Source: a virus. Taken from it: 32,300 nt of DNA. The notes under the pieces were generated by a model. The model was not told the DNA's origin. It did no database searches and was given only the letters and a program-made list of their open reading frames with translations. Positions 5,367 through 17,937 of the stretch are shown one piece after another. Numbering within the stretch: the stretch's first letter is position 1; the number at the start of each line of letters is the position of its first letter. The stretch is taken from positions 1 to 32,300 of IMG/VR virus record IMGVR_UViG_3300028766_000022, one strand, 5' to 3'. The position numbers were made by a program, and so were the translations under genes.

Positions 5367-6149
5367 ATGCCATACGAAAATATCCAAGGGCTTGTCGATT
5401 TGGAGTCGGAGCCTAAGTTTAAGATCGCTGTTGTAGGCGAGCCAAAAGCAGGAAAGAGCTGGTTCGCTATGACCGCGCCGGGAACAATCTTCGAGGCAGA
5501 TTTCGATGATCGTTCGGAGAGTATACGATCTTTTATATCAAAAACCAAACGTACAGATATAGATGCTAAAACATACAAGGAGTTGAATCCTGCGCAACCG
5601 CACGCTATTAGTGATTTTGAAACTGATATTAGTATGTTTGAATATCTGAAGCAGCAGGGAAAGCCGATACCAGAATGGTTTATTCTGGATTCTATGACAT
5701 ACTTGCGTGTTGCATGTGAGCATGAGCTTATAAAGCAACATCCGAGTATGAGTCGCACGGTTAAGATGGGAACGACGATAGTTAAAATCCCATCGCACTA
5801 TGATATTATAAACGGCAATCGCGCGTATATGGAATACTTGATTGGACGACTATCCGAGCTTGGAAACGTAATAGCAATATTTCACGAAATGGATGAAAAA
5901 GATGCCCAATCTTCTACAAAAGAGCAGAAGGCTTATACAGGACGTAAAACAGTACAACCTCAGTACCTTAGTTCGCTTCTTAGTCTTTTTAACGATGTTT
6001 TTAGAATCACTATTGATTATTCTGGTAATCGAATTGTTACTGTGCAGCCCAGTGGTGATTTTATGGCTTCTACATCAATGAGATTAGACGCTACGGAACC
6101 CGCGAATCTCGCAGATATGCTCACAAAGCATAAGAAAGCACTCCTATGA
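5367..6149 (+). CDS. Sak4-like RecA-fold ATPase (AAA_24 type)
   Basis: A 260-residue RecA-like core. Walker A is GEPKAGKS at 24-31, followed by a strand reading TIFEADFDD. A Walker B-like strand WFILDSM is near 104-110, and the sensor strand NVIAIFHEMDE follows near 170-180. This layout is that of phage nucleotide-binding proteins of the Sak4 type, RAD51-related proteins that support single-strand annealing or recombination. It lies between the RecB-like nuclease and a DUF669-like ssDNA-binding protein, the usual genomic company of Sak4 (family knowledge). GAGGG precedes the ATG. Fold confident; annealase role inferred. Confidence 0.82.
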   Translation: MPYENIQGLVDLESEPKFKIAVVGEPKAGKSWFAMTAPGTIFEADFDDRSESIRSFISKTKRTDIDAKTYKELNPAQPHAISDFETDISMFEYLKQQGKPIPEWFILDSMTYLRVACEHELIKQHPSMSRTVKMGTTIVKIPSHYDIINGNRAYMEYLIGRLSELGNVIAIFHEMDEKDAQSSTKEQKAYTGRKTVQPQYLSSLLSLFNDVFRITIDYSGNRIVTVQPSGDFMASTSMRLDATEPANLADMLTKHKKALL

Positions 6150-6334: not shown

Positions 6335-6838
6335 ATGAGTGGATTTTCAATGAAAGTTAGCAACGACAAGCTCGAAGGTTTGGATGTAGTTCCCCCCGGC
6401 CCGTATGATATTAAGCTAGTTGGATTCAATGTCAAGGTATCAAAAAAGGGAGATTCATTCAATCTGAATCCGTGCATGGAGATTGTTGGGCATCCTGAGT
6501 TTGCCGGGCGCAAGGTATTTGATACTTTGAACTCCGGCGGAGCTTGGACATGGCCTGATTTTGTGCACTGCTTTGGCTTGCCGATGGAGACGGACGGTAA
6601 GGAGAGTTGGATTCCGGGTTCATGGGATGGAGATAAGGCTAAGTATAAGGCCGATGATCCTAATACATGGAAGTATGCTGGCCCGCTGCTTGGGCGTTCG
6701 GGTAAGGTTAATATCGCTGTGGATAATTACAACGGTAAGGACTCGAATAAAGTTGAGCGGTATATTTGTGCTGTACCCGATTGTGCAAGCAAGTTCCCGA
6801 AGATTCGACATATCGCGGATTTGCTGAAGCGGAAGTAA
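6335..6838 (+). CDS. DUF669-like single-stranded DNA-binding protein
   Basis: 167 residues with the layout of phage DUF669 proteins: an N-terminal beta strand reading VVPPGPYDIKLVGF, a variable middle with NSGGAWTWPDFVHCFGLP, and a C-terminal strand pair. In many phages this family is encoded next to the Sak4/AAA_24 ATPase and behaves as an ssDNA-binding partner (family knowledge), and that is the arrangement here with only the tRNA between. A GAGGG site lies before the ATG. No acidic C-terminal SSB tail is visible; the end is basic (LLKRK). Assignment rests on overall pattern and neighbourhood rather than catalytic motifs. Confidence 0.65.
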   Translation: MSGFSMKVSNDKLEGLDVVPPGPYDIKLVGFNVKVSKKGDSFNLNPCMEIVGHPEFAGRKVFDTLNSGGAWTWPDFVHCFGLPMETDGKESWIPGSWDGDKAKYKADDPNTWKYAGPLLGRSGKVNIAVDNYNGKDSNKVERYICAVPDCASKFPKIRHIADLLKRK

Positions 6839-7375: not shown

Positions 7376-8512
7376 TTGGATAAATTTATAGCAAATAACG
7401 GAAACCCTGACAGCCCTGTATGGGTGCTGCTTAATAGGCCACTTCCCGGAGACGAGGACAAAGGCTATTTATTCAGCGCCCCTATGGGGTATGTTTTTGA
7501 TAAGATGATGCGAGAAGCCGGGCTGCCTGACTATTATGTAACTTGTTACCTACCAATCGTAGGAAAATCCACAGGCGGCGATTGGCATTGTTATCTGAAG
7601 CATCATAAACCCGCTATAATAATCCCACTGGGCGTCGCAGGATCTGGTGTATGCCATGAACTAGAACCAAAGTATCGTGGCCCTAAATATAACCCCGAGC
7701 GAGATTCTGAAATATCCAAGTATTGTGGATCGTTACTTAAATTAAAACAAACAAATGTGAGCGGGCCGAATGATTGGGAGCATTATGTAGTTCCAACATT
7801 CGAGCCGATTGATATTGTAAAGCAATGGAAACTTCGCGATGTGGTCATAAGCTGCGATCTCGCGAAAGCGGCCAGTGAGCTGGAGTATTGGAAAACACAC
7901 GCAAAGACAATGCAGCCATTGCCTAAACGCGAGCCAAAAATTCACTTCGAATGCTTTGACGAATTGCTTGCTATTCTGGATACTTTTTTCAACTACCCGA
8001 TTATCTCAAACGACATTGAGACAATCTATCCACGCGCGCCGACAAAGACGCAGCCATCTCAGTTCTATAAAATTCTCCCAGGGTATCCAATTACAATTGG
8101 TCTAGCTCCTCGGACTGACTTTGGTATTAGTTTTGATTTCTTTCGTGAGTCTACGGTAGAGACCCGCGAGCTATGGAAAAAACTTGCCAAGCTCCTTTGG
8201 GAAGTTCCATCGCTCGGCCAGAATTTTTTCAACTTCGATGCGAATTTCTATGAGATGCTGGGATTTAGGCTCCCGCTAGAGAAATGCCGCGATACAATGA
8301 TCCAGCATCAGCAACTATGGCCAGAGCTTCCACACAAGTTACAATTTCTAGCCCGACAATATACCCGCGAGGTATACTGGAAAGACGAGGGCGCGGGATG
8401 GAGTATTAAGAACATGGATGCTATGAAGATATATAATTGCAAGGACGTTATGTGTACTCTAGAGATATACTATGCACAACTAGAGGAAATGAAAGAAAGG
8501 GGGTTGGAATGA
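7376..8512 (+). CDS. UDG-like domain fused to DnaQ-type 3'-5' exonuclease: N-terminal half of a split family A polymerase
   Basis: 378 residues from a TTG start, seven bases after AGAGG. Residues about 14-150 resemble family 4 uracil-DNA glycosylases of the type fused to phage SPO1 DNA polymerase: LLNRPLPGDEDKGYLFSAPMG matches the motif 1 region and YVTCYLPI follows. The second catalytic motif, usually HPS-like, reads PTFEPID, so the histidine is missing and glycosylase activity is doubtful. Residues about 205-360 are a proofreading exonuclease: ExoI D213-x-E215, ExoII N283 to D288, D306, and ExoIII Y353-x3-D357, all metal ligands present. The polymerase domain is absent here and occurs 1.2 kb downstream as a separate gene. 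The two halves presumably assemble. Confidence 0.85.
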   Translation: MDKFIANNGNPDSPVWVLLNRPLPGDEDKGYLFSAPMGYVFDKMMREAGLPDYYVTCYLPIVGKSTGGDWHCYLKHHKPAIIIPLGVAGSGVCHELEPKYRGPKYNPERDSEISKYCGSLLKLKQTNVSGPNDWEHYVVPTFEPIDIVKQWKLRDVVISCDLAKAASELEYWKTHAKTMQPLPKREPKIHFECFDELLAILDTFFNYPIISNDIETIYPRAPTKTQPSQFYKILPGYPITIGLAPRTDFGISFDFFRESTVETRELWKKLAKLLWEVPSLGQNFFNFDANFYEMLGFRLPLEKCRDTMIQHQQLWPELPHKLQFLARQYTREVYWKDEGAGWSIKNMDAMKIYNCKDVMCTLEIYYAQLEEMKERGLE

Positions 8513-8709
8513 GTTATCATGATCTTAGTGAATGCACGCTTACAAATGACGAGCGTGTAGAAGAGAAGAATAGAATACTATCAAGATTACTTGATATGGA
8601 TATTGAATTTACAGATAGTGAGCGTAAATTCATATTTGGTATGGAATACCAAGAAAATGTAACAGTCAAACAACTCTTCTGGCTCCGTGATATTAACAAC
8701 AAATATTGA
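8509..8709 (+). CDS. small hypothetical protein
   Basis: 66 residues. Its ATG overlaps the exonuclease stop (ATGA at 8509-8512) and a GGGGG-rich binding site precedes it, so translation is coupled to the exonuclease. The sequence is acidic and helical (VEEKNRILSRLLDMDIEFTDSERKFIFGME) with no cysteine cluster. It is the first of four genes lying between the two halves of the polymerase. No family recognised. Confidence 0.6.
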   Translation: MSYHDLSECTLTNDERVEEKNRILSRLLDMDIEFTDSERKFIFGMEYQENVTVKQLFWLRDINNKY

Positions 8710-8717
8710 GGAAAACA

Positions 8718-8921
8718 ATGGCTGAAATCAGTGCATTTACACAAGAAAAACTCGCGGAGGAAATAAACTCCCAGTTTAAAAATCTCGCCGAGCTTCTCCT
8801 CGAACATCACGAGGCATATAAGCTCGCATACGCATTGAATGGCAAGTTCGTAGAATACTGCGAGCACGCCAGAATACTAACCCAGCACACAAAACAGAAC
8901 GTATCCATAGGAGGATACTAG
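8718..8921 (+). CDS. small helical hypothetical protein
   Basis: 67 residues preceded by TGAGGAAAA. It is almost entirely predicted helix (EKLAEEINSQFKNLAELLLE), with a short glycine-ending tail. Its stop is immediately followed by the ATG of the Ala/Thr-rich gene, whose binding site GGAGG lies within its last codons. No family recognised. Confidence 0.58.
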   Translation: MAEISAFTQEKLAEEINSQFKNLAELLLEHHEAYKLAYALNGKFVEYCEHARILTQHTKQNVSIGGY

Positions 8922-9479
8922 ATGGCAGCCCAGACTTACAATATAATCTTCAACTGTACGCCAGCACAGTTTAACACTGCAATGTCTACCACATTCCCAG
9001 CATTTGGGTGGGCAGCTATTCAAGCACCTATTAAGTTTTCAGGTATCGCAATAACTGGGACGTTTACAACCACAGCTACCACAAACACTAGCACAGCCCT
9101 CACAGCAATCGCCAGCACTGCCGGTTGGTATGTGGGTATGGGTATAACGGGTTCTGGCGTTCAAGCTGGAACTACAATCGTATCCTTTACATCCACAACT
9201 GCTGTGCTTTCTTTGGCTACTACAACTTCCGTAGCAGGTACTGCAGTAACACTCGCAGCCACTGCTGCCGGGAATCAGGTAGATTTTGCGTATGACGGCG
9301 CATATTTCCTACGTTTCTTTGACGCCGCCCCAGCAGCCCCATTACAGCAAGCGCAAACCGGAATTCCACAATCACAACTAACTCCAAATTTCATCGCATC
9401 CGTAACTGCGATGTTCGCTCCGACGCTAGGAGCGCCAATCGCGTCGAATGCTGCTAACGTACCCGGCCCGGCTGCTTAA
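8922..9479 (+). CDS. Ala/Thr-rich structural-type protein with Ig-like repeat motif
   Basis: 185 residues, extremely rich in alanine and threonine and with few charged residues. The middle carries a motif common in phage virion and surface proteins: STAGWYVGMGITGSGVQAG, followed by TTIVSF and alternating strands (VLSLATTTSVAGTAVTL). This predicts an all-beta Ig-like or decoration fold. It has a good GGAGG site and is followed by a perfect 10-bp hairpin, both fitting high expression. A virion-type gene in the middle of the polymerase cluster, far from the capsid genes and on the other strand, is odd. Function unknown; capsid decoration is one possibility. Confidence 0.62.
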   Translation: MAAQTYNIIFNCTPAQFNTAMSTTFPAFGWAAIQAPIKFSGIAITGTFTTTATTNTSTALTAIASTAGWYVGMGITGSGVQAGTTIVSFTSTTAVLSLATTTSVAGTAVTLAATAAGNQVDFAYDGAYFLRFFDAAPAAPLQQAQTGIPQSQLTPNFIASVTAMFAPTLGAPIASNAANVPGPAA

Positions 9480-9492
9480 TAGTAAATCAAAC

Positions 9493-9516
9493 TAGAGGGG
9501 CATTTCTGCCCCTCTA
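9493..9516 (+). terminator. perfect hairpin after the Ala/Thr-rich gene
   Basis: TAGAGGGGCA at 9493-9502 and TGCCCCTCTA at 9507-9516 form a perfect 10-bp stem with the tetraloop TTTC. There is no T-run; the next bases are the AGGAGG ribosome binding site of the following gene. It may act as a 3' stability element for the upstream message, a weak terminator, or a structure that limits access to the next start. Confidence 0.6.
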
Positions 9517-9526
9517 AGGAGGTTTA

Positions 9527-9745
9527 ATGCTATCTCGAATGTATTATAGTGTAATTTACTGGCGCATAAGACGCTTTCTTAAGTGGTTTTGTTATAAAAC
9601 AAAAATGCAGTGTTGTGGTAAAAGAAAGATTAATTATGCTGTTGAGTGGTGTAGTCTTTATGCTTTTCATGATAATGCCTGCAAAAGTTTTTCGGGCGAA
9701 GTATTTACGGATACTGTAAAGGAACAAGAACTTGCAGCCAAATAA
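9527..9745 (+). CDS. small basic cysteine-containing protein
   Basis: 72 residues with a very strong AAGGAGG site. The N-terminal 30 residues are aromatic and basic (YYSVIYWRIRRFLKWFCYK), possibly membrane-associated or DNA-binding, followed by CC, C and C residues that could bind metal. It ends 14 bases inside the polymerase gene, and so probably couples its translation. No family recognised. Confidence 0.55.
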   Translation: MLSRMYYSVIYWRIRRFLKWFCYKTKMQCCGKRKINYAVEWCSLYAFHDNACKSFSGEVFTDTVKEQELAAK

Positions 9746-11273
9746 AATCACCAGTGAGTATTTACATGCTTTGCAGAGTGTCTATCATCGCATAGACAGC
9801 CGTGGAATTCTAGTCTCCAAGGAGCGACTTAAAGATGCATCAGACTATATTAACACTGATATTACCAAGCAGTGCGCTATTGTCAGTTCTGTGTGGTCTT
9901 TACCTTGTTACATCGGTGCCGGAAACAAACCTGAAATTAGTCTGGGGAATAGCATTAATCTTAACTCCTCTTCTGGTAATAATACCCCACTTGGGCAACT
10001 AAAACGAATGGGGTATAAAATTCCAAAAGTTTCAGCGAGGGATGAAAATGGAAATTACATAGCGAAGGAGTCATTAAATGAGCTTGTCTTGCAAAAGATA
10101 TACGCTACCAATCAATTTGCAACCCCCGGAGGCGATCCAGCATTACGCGCACTTCTGCGAATACGCGAACTGGGAACTCTCCGCGCGCGGTATATCAACG
10201 CAAATCTCTATGTGCGGAACGGAGAAAGCCTCTTTCTTACAAATTACAACATTGCTGGAACAGTCACAGGTCGTAGAGGCTCTCGAAAGCATACGTTCGG
10301 GTTTGGGGGAAATGCACAAAATTTCCCGAAACACGGAGAGCTTGCTAAAGTTTACAGACGGTGCCTCGTTGCAAGGCCAGGAAAAATCCTCCTTAACATA
10401 GATCAAATGCAGGCCGAGGACTGGCCAACTTCAGCACTAGCGAATAACACGGAGGCTTTGGATGATTTACGTAATAATGTGGATCGTCATAGGAAACTGG
10501 GCTGTCTCATTTTTGATCTTCCGTGGGATTATTATACCGACGAACAATGGAAAGATTCAATCGAGCGATACCTTGGTAAGAAAACTCGGCACGCGAATAA
10601 CTATGGTATGCGTGCTAATACTATGTCTGATTCTCTTGCTAAAGAAGGGCATTCTGTAACTCCCGATCAGTGCAAAGCTATTCTTGAAAAAGTAAACAAA
10701 CACGATCCATCCGTCGAGCACGTATTCCACAAGTACATAAAGGACTGTCTCTATGCAAACCGAACTCTTCGAACTCCCTTCTTCCGCGAACGAATCTTCT
10801 TCGGACTCCGCGCAGGAGAAGCAGGAAGTAATAATAAGATTTTCAACGAAGCCTTTAGCTATATACCACAGTCTGTTGTCGGCGATAATACAGGATTTGC
10901 AGTCTATGAACTTGAAACCGGAGATGACAAAACCAGAGGTCATATTATACAAGAATGCCATGATTCGATTATGCAGGAGATTGACGACTCTGTGGACGTT
11001 ATCTGGGGTCATATCCAAGAAGCTAAGAAAGCATTTAATCGGACAATTCGTTTCCACAACGGAATTGAAATTAACATCCCAATCGAAGGAGAGATAGGGT
11101 ATGATTTCGCATCATCCGTTAGTTTAAAGTCCGGCAGTACCGGAACCAAGAAGCTAGATGACATTAGTTACGGAGATGTTCAAGCAGCTTTCTATAGACT
11201 GCAAGAGCTAAAACAAAAGGAAGTATCAGATGGCCAGAAAGCTAATTCAGAATTGGATCTCGTCTTACGTTAA
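9732..11273 (+). CDS. family A DNA polymerase, polymerase domain only
   Basis: 513 residues covering thumb, palm and fingers of a PolI-type enzyme without its exonuclease. GTVTGRRGS (176-184) and GGNAQNFPK (192-200) match the conserved TGR and QN regions. Motif A is LNIDQMQAED with catalytic D224. The O-helix reads R279, K283, H287, Y291-G292, and motif C is ECHDS with D411. Two deviations stand out: H287 where E. coli PolI has F762, and serine after the motif C aspartate where HDE is usual. The start is TTG with AAAGGAAC upstream, overlapping the previous gene by 14 bases. It should work with the separate exonuclease encoded at 7376-8512. Confidence 0.9.
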   Translation: MQPNKITSEYLHALQSVYHRIDSRGILVSKERLKDASDYINTDITKQCAIVSSVWSLPCYIGAGNKPEISLGNSINLNSSSGNNTPLGQLKRMGYKIPKVSARDENGNYIAKESLNELVLQKIYATNQFATPGGDPALRALLRIRELGTLRARYINANLYVRNGESLFLTNYNIAGTVTGRRGSRKHTFGFGGNAQNFPKHGELAKVYRRCLVARPGKILLNIDQMQAEDWPTSALANNTEALDDLRNNVDRHRKLGCLIFDLPWDYYTDEQWKDSIERYLGKKTRHANNYGMRANTMSDSLAKEGHSVTPDQCKAILEKVNKHDPSVEHVFHKYIKDCLYANRTLRTPFFRERIFFGLRAGEAGSNNKIFNEAFSYIPQSVVGDNTGFAVYELETGDDKTRGHIIQECHDSIMQEIDDSVDVIWGHIQEAKKAFNRTIRFHNGIEINIPIEGEIGYDFASSVSLKSGSTGTKKLDDISYGDVQAAFYRLQELKQKEVSDGQKANSELDLVLR

Positions 11274-12483
11274 TGCGATTACTCCGATTACTGAAGCACC
11301 TGATGCTTATGTTTATTGGTCAGCTATATCAGTAGTCAGTGCAGTTCTTAAGAAGAAAGTATGGGTACAACGTGGAACATTCAAAGTCTATCCAAATCAA
11401 TATATTATATTGGTTGGGCCACCCGGTGTTGGAAAAGGAACAGCCATGCATCCAGCCCATGCTTATATTAAAGAATACAAACCAGAACTCTCAAACTATT
11501 TGTCAGATAGAATCACAGCACCAGAAATCATCAGTAGACTCGCAGCAGGATTTCAAACTCAGTCCATTGTTAACGGTCATGTCGTTACAAGTACAGAGTC
11601 AACCGCCTGCATAATGGCAACAGAACTTTCAACCTTCCTCGGCAGCAGTGATTGGATGACCTCCTTTCTCTGCGATACTTGGGATCGGAGTAAATTTGAA
11701 TACGGGACTAAAAACAAAGGTAGCTATGCTATCAAGGACATGTGTGTTTCTCTCATTGGCGCTTGTGTTCCGGATTTTATACGGAAGATTAATGGCAAGA
11801 CTAATTCCGCAGAAGCTGTTAATAGCGGTTTCACGGCTCGTACTGTATTCGTATTCGCGAATGAAAAATCCAAAAAGCTCCCTTGGCCTATTCGATTAGA
11901 GGATATGAAGGGTGGGCCGGAGATTATTAAGAGTTTGAGAGGTGATCTTGAAGAAATATCGCAACTTACGGGAGAATTTACATTCACACAGGATGCTATT
12001 GATACATTTAATCAATGGTATGCAAAGCTCGGGGCTATTGACACAGACTCAGATGTAGTACGGCATTTCAAAAGTCGCCAAGATGTTCACGTATTCAAAG
12101 TCGCAATGTGCCTCGCGGCTGCGACTAACGATAAACTTGTAATAGATCGGTGGTGTTTATTCACAGCAATTGCTCTAGTACAGGGTGTGCTTGACACACT
12201 CGATATTACATTCCGTGGCGTCGGCGAAAGCACACTATCAGAAGCGACCGCAAAAGTTCAAACATATCTAGAGCGCAAAGGGATTGCTACTCGTGCGGAG
12301 CTTGTACGAGATATGTCCCGTCACGCAACGATGGAAGATTTAGATAGAATCATTCTAACACTACATACCATCGGTATAGTAAAACCATTCAGCCAGGGAG
12401 GGCGTCAATTCTATGAATACAATAGCAAGGGAGCAGGAAATGTTGGGGCGGCGGGAGCCGGAGTTGGAAACATCCAGCCTTGA
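11230..12483 (+). CDS. DUF3987/YfjI-like P-loop ATPase, putative replicative helicase
   Basis: 417 residues overlapping the polymerase gene by 44 bases. The N-terminal EAPDAYVYWSAISVVSAVL leads into a strand ending YPNQYIILVGPPGVGKGT, a Walker A at about 63-71. A Walker B-like region (CIMATELSTFL) follows, then CVSLIGACVP and a helical C-terminal domain (TLSEATAKVQTYLERKGIATRAELV) resembling a winged helix. This family is encoded with phage polymerases and primases and is thought to be the replicative helicase or loader (inference from family context). The last 20 residues are low-complexity Gly/Ala. An AAGGAAG site precedes the ATG. Confidence 0.8.
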   Translation: MARKLIQNWISSYVNAITPITEAPDAYVYWSAISVVSAVLKKKVWVQRGTFKVYPNQYIILVGPPGVGKGTAMHPAHAYIKEYKPELSNYLSDRITAPEIISRLAAGFQTQSIVNGHVVTSTESTACIMATELSTFLGSSDWMTSFLCDTWDRSKFEYGTKNKGSYAIKDMCVSLIGACVPDFIRKINGKTNSAEAVNSGFTARTVFVFANEKSKKLPWPIRLEDMKGGPEIIKSLRGDLEEISQLTGEFTFTQDAIDTFNQWYAKLGAIDTDSDVVRHFKSRQDVHVFKVAMCLAAATNDKLVIDRWCLFTAIALVQGVLDTLDITFRGVGESTLSEATAKVQTYLERKGIATRAELVRDMSRHATMEDLDRIILTLHTIGIVKPFSQGGRQFYEYNSKGAGNVGAAGAGVGNIQP

Positions 12484-13036: not shown

Positions 13037-13068
13037 AACCCCACCCTAGATTAATAGGGTGGGGTTTT
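13037..13068. terminator. bidirectional intrinsic terminator
   Basis: AACCCCACCCTA at 13037-13048 and TAGGGTGGGGTT at 13055-13066 form a perfect 12-bp stem with a 6-base loop. An A-run precedes it (13031-13035) and a T-run follows (13065-13068), so it works in both directions. It sits between the convergent + strand replication arm and - strand virion arm. Confidence 0.92.
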
Positions 13069-14207: not shown

Positions 14208-16223
14208 TTAGAAGCTCCAGATGCACCCTGCCGTGGTCTTTGATAGCTGTGTGACGATAAGATTTGTGACGTGCGGCCCAGTCGGAAGAGTCACAGCACT
14301 GGCCGATCCGTTAATCGTTTGCCCGCTCACACCTTCGACTACTGTTACAGCGTTGCTGTTGGTGACGTTGATTGTATAAGTCGCTCCACCCTGTAGCCCA
14401 TAGCATGTCGGCATGGTGATCGCCGTGTTGGTGGCAGGAGTGACCAAATTGAATACTTGGCTATTGAGCAGCGTTGCAGTTGTTGCAGTTATTAGGTTCG
14501 GATTTCCTGCGTTCTGGCCACCCAAGTAATTCATCTCTGCAACAGCCTCAGCATTCATTGCATTCTGACCGGTCTGATTGGGATGCGTGCCGTCAGACAG
14601 AAAATCTGAGCCAGAATATGCGCCATCGGCACCTAACAACGGGTTAGATGAAAATACAACTTCCCCCGCAGCCCCCCATGCTTTCCAGTTATCCGCTACG
14701 ATAGCATCCCAACTATTTTTAAGGCTATCCATCGTAGGGTTCCCTGTTGCATTACTATTCCCAGTTCGCGAAATCATGTCTGCGACTAAAACTTTGCATC
14801 CGGCATTCGTATACTTAGATATAACCCCCGCCATGTTGGATTGGATGTTGGCAATGGTCCCGTAAGATCCATAGTATAGATCGTTAGTGGCGGCATCCAA
14901 TATCAACCAAACTGGACCGTAATCCCCTTTGCAGTAAGTAGCCATGCGATCTGGCTCCATCGCAGCTATCTGCCAAAGTGTTATTCCGACTACGCCAAGT
15001 ATTCGAGTAGTGTATACTGGCTGTCCGGCGTCCAGCGAAAAGGATGTGCAGTAGGGAGTGGTTACGCCAAGACCATAGGTTATCGAATCACCAACACAAT
15101 TAATCGTTGGGACTGCCTGACGAATGTTAATTGGGGAAATCTGTATACCTCGCGCAAGGGCGTCGGACCGAAGTATGCTATCAACCGCCTGAGCTTGGCT
15201 AGGCGTAAGCTGCTGAGAAAACAAGGTAGCTCTCGGCAACATCCCAAACAGGCTGTTGTTTGCAAAAACCCCCGAATTTACTGAGCCTAGATAAAAATTA
15301 CCTCCCGCTGGTGCATAACCTCCATCCGTTGTCTGGTTTGTGTATCCTGTTTCTTGGCCGTCAATGTAAATATGGGTCAGCCCGGTTCCAACACCCGATC
15401 CAATAGTTACAATCGCTGTGTGAAATCCGCTAGTTGAATTAACGCCTTGCGTCCCATTAGCATTATTGGCATAGATTCCTATGCCAAACGACCCAGAGGC
15501 AGACCCACCTCCAACAGGGTGCAACCAATTTAGGATATTAAATCCACTCCCAACATTCGAACTCGTCAGAAATGTCCCGAAGGCTGGGAATGCTATTCCT
15601 CCAGAAATAGTCGGAGGAATGTTGTCATAAAAACTAAACGCAAACGACTGTGCTGCATTGACTGCAGACGGCAATAACACTCCGTCTCCTCGTGTGTTGT
15701 CATAGACTCCGGTAGTTAGGTTGGTATTGAAACTCAATCCCTGCGGAGTTACCGTAGGAAGTGTTGCACTGCCACCGCCGAGCGTACCGTCATATCCATT
15801 TCCGCTACTGTCTATCAATGTCGTACCAACCACGTTGCGCGTGTCATAGTCTGCTAGTGGTTGGTACGGCCAGTTGAACGTCCCCGTAATAGTTTCCGGA
15901 GTTAGTACCTTGCTGGGGTTCTCAACGTATACCTGCCCCGGTGTCGGCGCGGTCGCAGAGACGGGATTGCCCTGAAGCGAGGTCGCGTTGCCACCACTGC
16001 CACTTCCCGGATTGCATGGCTGCCACGGTCCTCCTGATGTCGCTTGGCAGTATAGTCCTATCGCGGGTGGAGTAAAAGAAAGAGATCCAAAACCTCCAGA
16101 AGAAGTCCACGGGTTCCATGTGCCAGCCGACAGAGATAAGTAAGCGGCCATTGGCACAGGCTTCTGCGCCCCAACCGTCAGCGTCAACGCGAGAATTGAA
16201 AGCAGTAAGCAAACTTTTTTCAT
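14208..16223 (-). CDS. secreted LamG plus SGNH/GDSL hydrolase, tail-spike-like
   Basis: 671 residues. Residues 1-19 are a Sec signal (MKKVCLLLSILALTLTVGA). Residues about 80-105 contain LQGNPVSATAPTPGQVYVE, a motif common in phage fibres. Residues about 128-345 look like a LamG/concanavalin-type lectin sandwich. An SGNH hydrolase follows: block I CVGDSITYG (S380), block III NDLYYG near 447, block V DGTHPN (D544, H547), giving a complete Ser-Asp-His set. The last 100 residues are a beta-rich fibre-type end. Such enzymes deacetylate or de-esterify polysaccharides (family knowledge). A secretion signal is unusual for a virion protein; it may be exported by the infected host instead. AGAGGAAG precedes the ATG. 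Confidence 0.85.
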   Translation of the reverse strand: MKKVCLLLSILALTLTVGAQKPVPMAAYLSLSAGTWNPWTSSGGFGSLSFTPPAIGLYCQATSGGPWQPCNPGSGSGGNATSLQGNPVSATAPTPGQVYVENPSKVLTPETITGTFNWPYQPLADYDTRNVVGTTLIDSSGNGYDGTLGGGSATLPTVTPQGLSFNTNLTTGVYDNTRGDGVLLPSAVNAAQSFAFSFYDNIPPTISGGIAFPAFGTFLTSSNVGSGFNILNWLHPVGGGSASGSFGIGIYANNANGTQGVNSTSGFHTAIVTIGSGVGTGLTHIYIDGQETGYTNQTTDGGYAPAGGNFYLGSVNSGVFANNSLFGMLPRATLFSQQLTPSQAQAVDSILRSDALARGIQISPINIRQAVPTINCVGDSITYGLGVTTPYCTSFSLDAGQPVYTTRILGVVGITLWQIAAMEPDRMATYCKGDYGPVWLILDAATNDLYYGSYGTIANIQSNMAGVISKYTNAGCKVLVADMISRTGNSNATGNPTMDSLKNSWDAIVADNWKAWGAAGEVVFSSNPLLGADGAYSGSDFLSDGTHPNQTGQNAMNAEAVAEMNYLGGQNAGNPNLITATTATLLNSQVFNLVTPATNTAITMPTCYGLQGGATYTINVTNSNAVTVVEGVSGQTINGSASAVTLPTGPHVTNLIVTQLSKTTAGCIWSF

Positions 16224-16583: not shown

Positions 16584-16924
16584 TGCTGTACCCCCGAAAA
16601 TTTTCTCTGGTAGCGATCTCCCACCGTGTATGCCTGCTGCTGCTTCGGCCTGTCCCAGTTCGCCCGATCCATGTTCGTCGGGATGTGGTTGAAGTGGAAC
16701 CGGCTCTCTGCCTCTTCCAGTTGCCGCCTACTGGTCACGCGAACTTTCTCGCCGCGCTCGTCGTAGATATGCTCCAAGGTGAGCGACCCATCGTTGTGGA
16801 ACGGGTTGTCGGGGTCAGCGATAACAGTATCCCGCGAGCAGCCGCAGTCCACGCCCAGCCACTTCCCCGCGCTGAAGCGTGTACGAAAAACCGGGACTCC
16901 ACAACTACCACAGGCTTGACTCAT
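16580..16924 (-). CDS. zinc-ribbon protein of the virion block
   Basis: 114 residues from ATG 16924, which overlaps the upstream gene's TGA and has GGAGG nearby; a longer GTG start at 16960 is less likely. The N-terminus has C5xxC8 (CGSCGVP) and a second cysteine pair (DCGCSR), forming a probable zinc ribbon, followed by a helical charged segment (VTSRRQLEEAESRFHFNH). It lies between a connector-type gene and a small polar gene. Function unknown. Confidence 0.62.
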   Translation of the reverse strand: MSQACGSCGVPVFRTRFSAGKWLGVDCGCSRDTVIADPDNPFHNDGSLTLEHIYDERGEKVRVTSRRQLEEAESRFHFNHIPTNMDRANWDRPKQQQAYTVGDRYQRKFSGVQQ

Positions 16925-17937
16925 AACTCGTATCCTCCTCCACTTCCTCCAGCCGCGCAAAGATGGGTCGCATTGAACAGTGCGCCTCCACTCTGGTAGT
17001 ATGGCATATCCTCTCCCATCTTTGTGACTTCAGTACGATAGAGATTTTCGTCGGCGTTGGCCATGCGAAGGATTTCTCCCTCGTAATCTTGGCGCTTAAT
17101 CCTCGACTCGGCTGGATCGTAGTACCTATTATTCTTGGGGCCTCCGATGACTAGCGCGTCTGCAATTACGTCTTTAATAATTACATCTGCGCGAAAATAC
17201 GGAGGGAAGGGATCAGAGTCGTTTACCAAGTTGAATGGTTGGATATATGCTTGGAACGGAAACGCTTGCTGAATCCACGAAGCGGGATAAAGCTCTTGGA
17301 GATACGAACCGTCCTGCGCAAGAGGCATCCCTGCGGATATATAGGGGAAGTTCTGGTTGGATCTCCAGGCGTCCAGGGTGTTGAGTCCGTCTTGCGTCCA
17401 GTGCAGATCAAACTTGTAACCAAGTTGGGTGTTAATCATGGTCTTCAAGTATTTGACGTTAGGCCCGAAGTTGAAATAATACTGAACAATGAAATACCCC
17501 GATGTAACCGAAGGGCTGCCCCAAGGCAATTCGAGTGTCAACGTCTGCGGCGTTGCTGTGTCATCCACGGCCACAATCGAGTAGATGGGGCAATTGTAGC
17601 CAATTCTGAACTGTTGACCAACGAGAGCCTGCGTCCAGACGGTGCCCGTGCCGACTACGATAGGCGACCCAAGGGTAGTCGTCGCCTGCCCCTTTGTGGT
17701 GGCTTGTGGTGCGATCACTTGCCCTTTGACGAAGAGGCTCGCCCAGGTTTTACGGTCTACCGTTCGACGGAGTGAGTTGTTGAGAAGACCGAGTATTTTA
17801 GGTTGGGAGAGATCGGGATTCCAGAACTGAACTTGTCCGATCGCCTGCCCAGTATTCATCTGATTGACCGCGGGGTTCGACCCATCAGGAAGAACTTGCT
17901 GTGGTATCACAACGCCCGGACTCGGAACAATCGGCAT
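16921..17937 (-). CDS. head completion/connector-type virion protein
   Basis: 338 residues. Residues about 85-155 hold a beta-sandwich insert with a phage adaptor-like pattern (VVGTGTVWTQALVGQQFRI, then LTLELPWGS and SGYFIVQYYF). The remainder includes an aromatic helical part (KYLKTMINTQLGYKFDLHW) and a Gly-rich C-terminus. It follows the decoration-type genes at the place where head-tail adaptors are normally encoded, which is the main basis for the call. A binding site GAGAGGGTGA precedes the ATG, and a hairpin lies just upstream. Exact family not recognised. Confidence 0.6.
   Translation of the reverse strand: MPIVPSPGVVIPQQVLPDGSNPAVNQMNTGQAIGQVQFWNPDLSQPKILGLLNNSLRRTVDRKTWASLFVKGQVIAPQATTKGQATTTLGSPIVVGTGTVWTQALVGQQFRIGYNCPIYSIVAVDDTATPQTLTLELPWGSPSVTSGYFIVQYYFNFGPNVKYLKTMINTQLGYKFDLHWTQDGLNTLDAWRSNQNFPYISAGMPLAQDGSYLQELYPASWIQQAFPFQAYIQPFNLVNDSDPFPPYFRADVIIKDVIADALVIGGPKNNRYYDPAESRIKRQDYEGEILRMANADENLYRTEVTKMGEDMPYYQSGGALFNATHLCAAGGSGGGYEL

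Follow-up and report, generated by a model that had tools for sequence, protein, structure and literature searches.

A phage family A DNA polymerase encoded as separate exonuclease and polymerase genes in one replication operon

The polymerase and the proofreading exonuclease are encoded separately in all phages of the LUZ24 group (PMC3517423). In these phages (Bruynoghevirus), the exonuclease gene is DNA polymerase part I (gp25) and the polymerase gene is part II (gp34). They lie on the same strand of the replication module, and in LUZ24 eight small ORFs are located between them. The exonuclease half is 169 aa long and has no UDG-like domain, and an intron lies inside the LUZ24 polymerase half (PMC3517423). 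The same paper, citing Savalia 2008, attributes a similar organisation with a separate exonuclease gene to phiEco32, and PMC3517423 and PMC3890496 describe exonuclease and polymerase genes that are separate, with small genes lying between them, in phiEco32 and in the LUZ24 group. We confirmed the exonuclease subunit (phrog_38876/403) in a Kuravirus record. However, this subunit was without a UDG-like domain, the polymerase gene was elsewhere, and the neighbouring gene belonged to a nucleotidyltransferase family. Synechococcus phage DSL-LC07 also carries two genes, which overlap each other. Its polymerase is T7-type, with neither a UDG-like domain nor a cassette of intervening genes. The OM43 phages MEP401 and MEP402 (PMC10580990) and cyanophage Mic1 (PMC7156551) have a family A polymerase in two ORFs as well, but the cut is within the polymerase domain and the authors suspected an intron (PMC10580990, PMC7156551).

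We analysed a record of an uncultured virus over its whole length of 32.3 kb, referred to here as the window. An exonuclease subunit was encoded at 7376..8512 (+ strand, TTG start, 378 aa), with a UDG-like N-terminal domain at approximately residues 1-175 and a 3'-5' exonuclease domain at approximately residues 176-378. A family A polymerase subunit with thumb, palm and fingers was encoded at 9732..11273 (+ strand, TTG start, 513 aa). PHROG profile search matched the exonuclease gene to positions 562-831 of phrog_17 (DNA polymerase) and the polymerase protein to positions 841-1242 of the same profile (5e-25). Since the two stretches adjoin, the two genes make up one PolA that is cut between the exonuclease and polymerase domains. 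The polymerase protein also matched PF00476 above the cut-off (1.3e-18), and a PDB search with it returned PolA structures. The PF01612 match of the exonuclease protein on its own was weak (0.0096), and among its homologues PF01612 was matched in 9/14 and the UDG family PF03167 in 8/14. The AlphaFold model of the exonuclease protein had a pLDDT of 91 and a pTM of 0.89. In structure comparison, its N-terminal half resembled uracil-DNA glycosylases and its C-terminal half resembled the Klenow exonuclease.

The catalytic residues were complete on both sides. The DEDDy 3'-5' exonuclease site (D213, E215, D288, Y353, D357) was intact on a gene separate from the polymerase, and together with N283 and D306 it was unchanged in all 40 relatives of the lineage described below. 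In the polymerase, the Asp, Lys, Tyr and His-Asp of motifs A (D224/E229), B (K283-H287-Y291) and C (H410-D411) placed the protein in family A. D224, E229, K283, H287 and Y291 were unchanged in 40/40 relatives, and H410-D411 was unchanged wherever the sequence of the relatives extended that far. Compared with the nearest informative relative, dN/dS was approximately 0.10 for the exonuclease gene and 0.06 for the polymerase gene, values that indicate purifying selection on each. The coordinates and residues of the original prediction were correct on re-check. Its central claim, one UDG-exonuclease-polymerase enzyme held as two intact genes that look functional and undecayed, was borne out by the adjacent phrog_17 parts, the invariant active sites and the low dN/dS. 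It had also proposed TTG starts, which are plausible because TTG is the sole start codon at the conserved N-terminus of either gene and most relatives have ATG there. A second, complete PolA would have spoken against the split, and none was found in the window, in a near-identical 40.4-kb contig or in 20 other relatives.

IMG/VR was scanned with single proteins and with alignments, which yielded loci L002-L024 and L028-L128. The halves were separate and in the same order in all 40 non-redundant relatives whose polymerase identity was 41% or more. A search for the same split in related contigs had been suggested, and exonuclease and polymerase, which share one chain in a PolA, were on two ORFs in every member of the lineage. 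In relatives below approximately 34% polymerase identity, a single ORF was found in 20/20 tested, carrying UDG, exonuclease and polymerase apart from truncated or frameshifted contigs. In the polymerase tree, the split set formed one side of one branch with a support of 100. Across 22 contigs, the phrog_17 break fell almost always at positions 829-850, which corresponded to the boundary of the exonuclease domain and the thumb. Since the close relatives were all split and the more distant relatives all single-ORF, these comparisons indicate that the split arose once, long ago, in this lineage. Distances of exonuclease and polymerase correlated with r = 0.95, as expected of neighbouring genes even without contact. 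A genome scan for cellular homologues gave just one match, which was partial (31%).

The nearest outgroup was formed by fused UDG-exonuclease-polymerase proteins (L084-L106, ctMlz233 and Desulfofustis phage LS06). Their three domains match those of the window in kind and order, but lie in one ORF, and their UDG catalytic motifs are mostly intact. SPO1-like phages have the fused form too and were more distant. The break in the LUZ24 group was at the same profile position as in the window, since gp25 ended at phrog_17 position 844 and gp34 started at 836, compared with 831 and 841 here. In DSL-LC07, phrog_17 was also cut there (828/836). However, LUZ24 belongs to a different PolA branch. In a tree with LUZ24, DSL-LC07 and the fused relatives, the present lineage was on a different branch from both, and the AU test rejected one clade of all split polymerases that included LUZ24-type and DSL-LC07 proteins (p of about 4e-61); the branches in this comparison are long and call for some caution. 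These phylogenetic results indicate that the split here was independent of that in LUZ24 (AU p of about 1e-61). PolA has clearly been split more than once in phages at the same exonuclease/polymerase boundary, and it can be cut there repeatedly and stably. The arrangement had been called unusual. Its novelty was overstated, because PMC3517423 and PMC3890496 already report exonuclease and polymerase on separate genes in phiEco32 and the LUZ24 group, and DSL-LC07 has such genes as well. The split is thus real, old, apparently functional and independently evolved, but of a documented kind. What this lineage adds to the known splits is a proofreading half with a motif-less UDG-like domain and a junction that is prone to insertion.

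The presence of a UDG in the exonuclease gene was confirmed for the fold but not for the catalytic motifs. Foldseek matched the domain to 1vk2, 1ui0 and UdgX with E values of 1e-8 to 1e-7 and TM scores of at most 0.66 by target. Where the alignment covered them, GE[AC]PGxxE and HP[SA] were present in most of the fused relatives. However, GExPG was absent from 40/40 split proteins, most of which read x-x-x-P-[LYFM]-x-x-D, and the HP motif was left in just 2/40. The UDG-like domain was also less conserved than the exonuclease domain, with mean identities to the window of 42% and 57%, respectively. Since the canonical motifs were missing, the domain probably has no uracil glycosylase activity; it has kept the fold, whereas the chemistry was probably lost. 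It is more likely to act as a DNA-binding or docking module. A motif-less UDG-like domain on the exonuclease half, with motifs conserved in the fused relatives, looks like a new feature. A further and rather doubtful extension is that the domain was stripped of its chemistry after the split and became the module by which a detachable proofreading subunit docks or holds DNA, so that proofreading could be tuned or exchanged independently of polymerisation.

We consider it probable that the two genes encode subunits of a proofreading, replicative family A polymerase, which associate non-covalently in a Klenow-like manner. The ancestor of the lineage would have had a single UDG-exonuclease-polymerase gene, divided at the exonuclease/thumb boundary to give two cistrons within a single replication operon, where both halves would have stayed together ever since. 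If the products associate without a covalent link in the Klenow-like arrangement, a mispaired primer end could leave the polymerase site and enter the exonuclease site on the other subunit. We infer the physical complex and proofreading in trans in this sense. Structure prediction was performed on the L024 pair, which is naturally in frame. Its read-through joined chain, with stops read as Gly and an artificial linker of approximately 50 residues, gave a pTM of 0.84, and low confidence was largely limited to the linker and a small number of loops. The joint exonuclease-polymerase alignment was built from read-through rows. Klenow fragments could be aligned to the model along its exonuclease and polymerase halves alike (TM 0.73-0.77 by target). 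This prediction is compatible with Klenow-like packing of the halves, although it is not an independent test, since the linker holds the two halves close to each other and the Klenow arrangement is already familiar to AlphaFold. The lineage would offer a Klenow-like enzyme that is naturally in two chains, on which proofreading in trans can be studied.

The exonuclease protein might instead be a free-standing DNA-processing nuclease apart from the polymerase, which would then replicate without proofreading. ExnV1, a phage-type PolA exonuclease that stands alone, is a soluble monomer (PMC9629493), and the two proteins of our lineage are translated separately across gaps of up to 1.66 kb. However, in 40 relatives the pair was never parted, neither half was lost and the operon order was constant, and the exonuclease had kept its complete active site and its PolA-type fold, which makes an independent nuclease unlikely compared with a proofreading subunit. 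The uncultured origin of the record raised the concern of an assembly chimera or of decaying gene remnants. This was refuted by the comparative data, since the same layout was present in 40 non-redundant sequences taken from many metagenome contigs, the active sites were conserved and dN/dS was low.

It was also considered whether a mobile element interrupts one gene, whose parts are rejoined by RNA or protein splicing through a group I intron or a split intein. Introns are known to occupy phage PolA genes, as in the polymerase half of LUZ24 (PMC3517423), and HNH endonucleases occur in some gaps. However, each gene had a separate start codon, and the Rfam search for a group I intron in the gap gave no match at gathering or relaxed thresholds, even at E values up to 1. 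The exonuclease ORF ended and the polymerase ORF started at the domain edge, and neither half had a terminal extension of intein size that could hold intein blocks. The cassettes contained complete unrelated genes, and the L013 and L040 genes overlapped out of frame, which left no room for an intron. Splicing was therefore judged very improbable, and two separately translated subunits remain the preferred reading.

The two genes had been described as distant, with four small genes in about 1.2 kb between them. The count and spacing were accurate, as four ORFs lay in the 1,219 nt between the halves. "Distant" was overstated, because both genes share one closely packed operon in which stop and start codons overlap in most cases. 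Intervening ORF 1 (8509..8709, +, 66 aa) started over the exonuclease stop as ATGA and was not conserved in the lineage, and ORF 2 (8718..8921, +, approximately 67 aa) was present only in the nearest relatives. ORF 3 (8922..9479, +, 185 aa) was found in near relatives only and consisted of a removable middle domain between two conserved ends. This middle domain (approximately residues 48-117) had a weak likeness to virion-protein domains, and it was present in some relatives and cleanly missing in others. ORF 4 (9527..9745, +, 72 aa) overlapped the polymerase start by 14 nt at its 3' end. A copy of ORF 4 with 52% identity was located elsewhere, upstream in L012 (L012:5430-5591), which suggests from the sequence that ORF 4 may be a mobile small gene. 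A strong RNA hairpin (9492..9517, +), perfect and GC-rich (z = -4.5), was directly upstream of its ribosome-binding site. Promoter-like sites between the two genes were just moderately above shuffles.

Across the lineage, the gap ranged from -26 nt, a 26-nt overlap in L013 and L040, to 1,664 nt, and it was approximately 140-180 nt in twelve loci. It differed even between close relatives (1,336 nt in L043 versus 158 nt in L056). The contents varied likewise and included ThyX (L030), GNAT (L038) and many small ORFs of no known kind. Because of this variation in length and contents, the cassette, which had been taken as part of the arrangement, is better described as a site of variable insertion within a split that is older than it. 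Given the overlapping and short-gap relatives, the insertion of a cassette was rejected as a requirement for the split. An HNH endonuclease was in the gap of 5/39 relatives (L052, L062, L064, L076, L083), an excess with 5/14 matches in 5.4% of the sequence (p of approximately 6e-4), and some HNH genes outside the gap abutted the exonuclease or polymerase gene. This pattern resembles intronless homing into the polymerase locus. The former junction would have become a tolerated site where accessory genes, HNH endonucleases among them, were gained and lost, and the lineage provides a clear example of a gene junction at which accessory and endonuclease genes have come to insert.

The left arm of the window, on the + strand, formed the replication module. 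Upstream of the exonuclease gene were a Sak4-like ATPase gene for single-strand annealing/recombination (5367..6149, +) and a single-strand-binding-like gene (6335..6838, +; DUF669/SSB-like, weak). A primase/helicase-like gene of the same operon (11230..12483, +; DUF3987, phrog_14296) lay downstream and overlapped the polymerase gene at its 3' end. The early region also had an FtsK/SpoIIIE-like ATPase gene at 1030-2151 (phrog_1358, 5e-74). The right arm, on the - strand, carried portal and terminase, and the large ORFs of this structural arm at 14208-16223 (-) and 16921-17937 (-), of 671 and 338 aa, had no PHROG match. A strong terminator-like hairpin at 13037-13066 lay between the two arms.

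Several minor features were observed in the polymerase gene. Residue 287 in motif B, the equivalent of E. coli Phe762, was His throughout the lineage (K-x3-H-x3-Y), and not the Phe, Tyr or Leu known from phage PolA proteins. Between L004 and L005, the exonuclease gene was identical and the flanks were near-identical, whereas a 290-bp polymerase tract spanning the fingers and motif B (L004:10717-11003) had only approximately 60% nucleotide identity, a sharp mosaic swap. The window and L002 differed at fewer than 20 positions across more than 13 kb, and 8 of the differences were clustered at polymerase motif C (10961-11042) in a small conversion-like tract.
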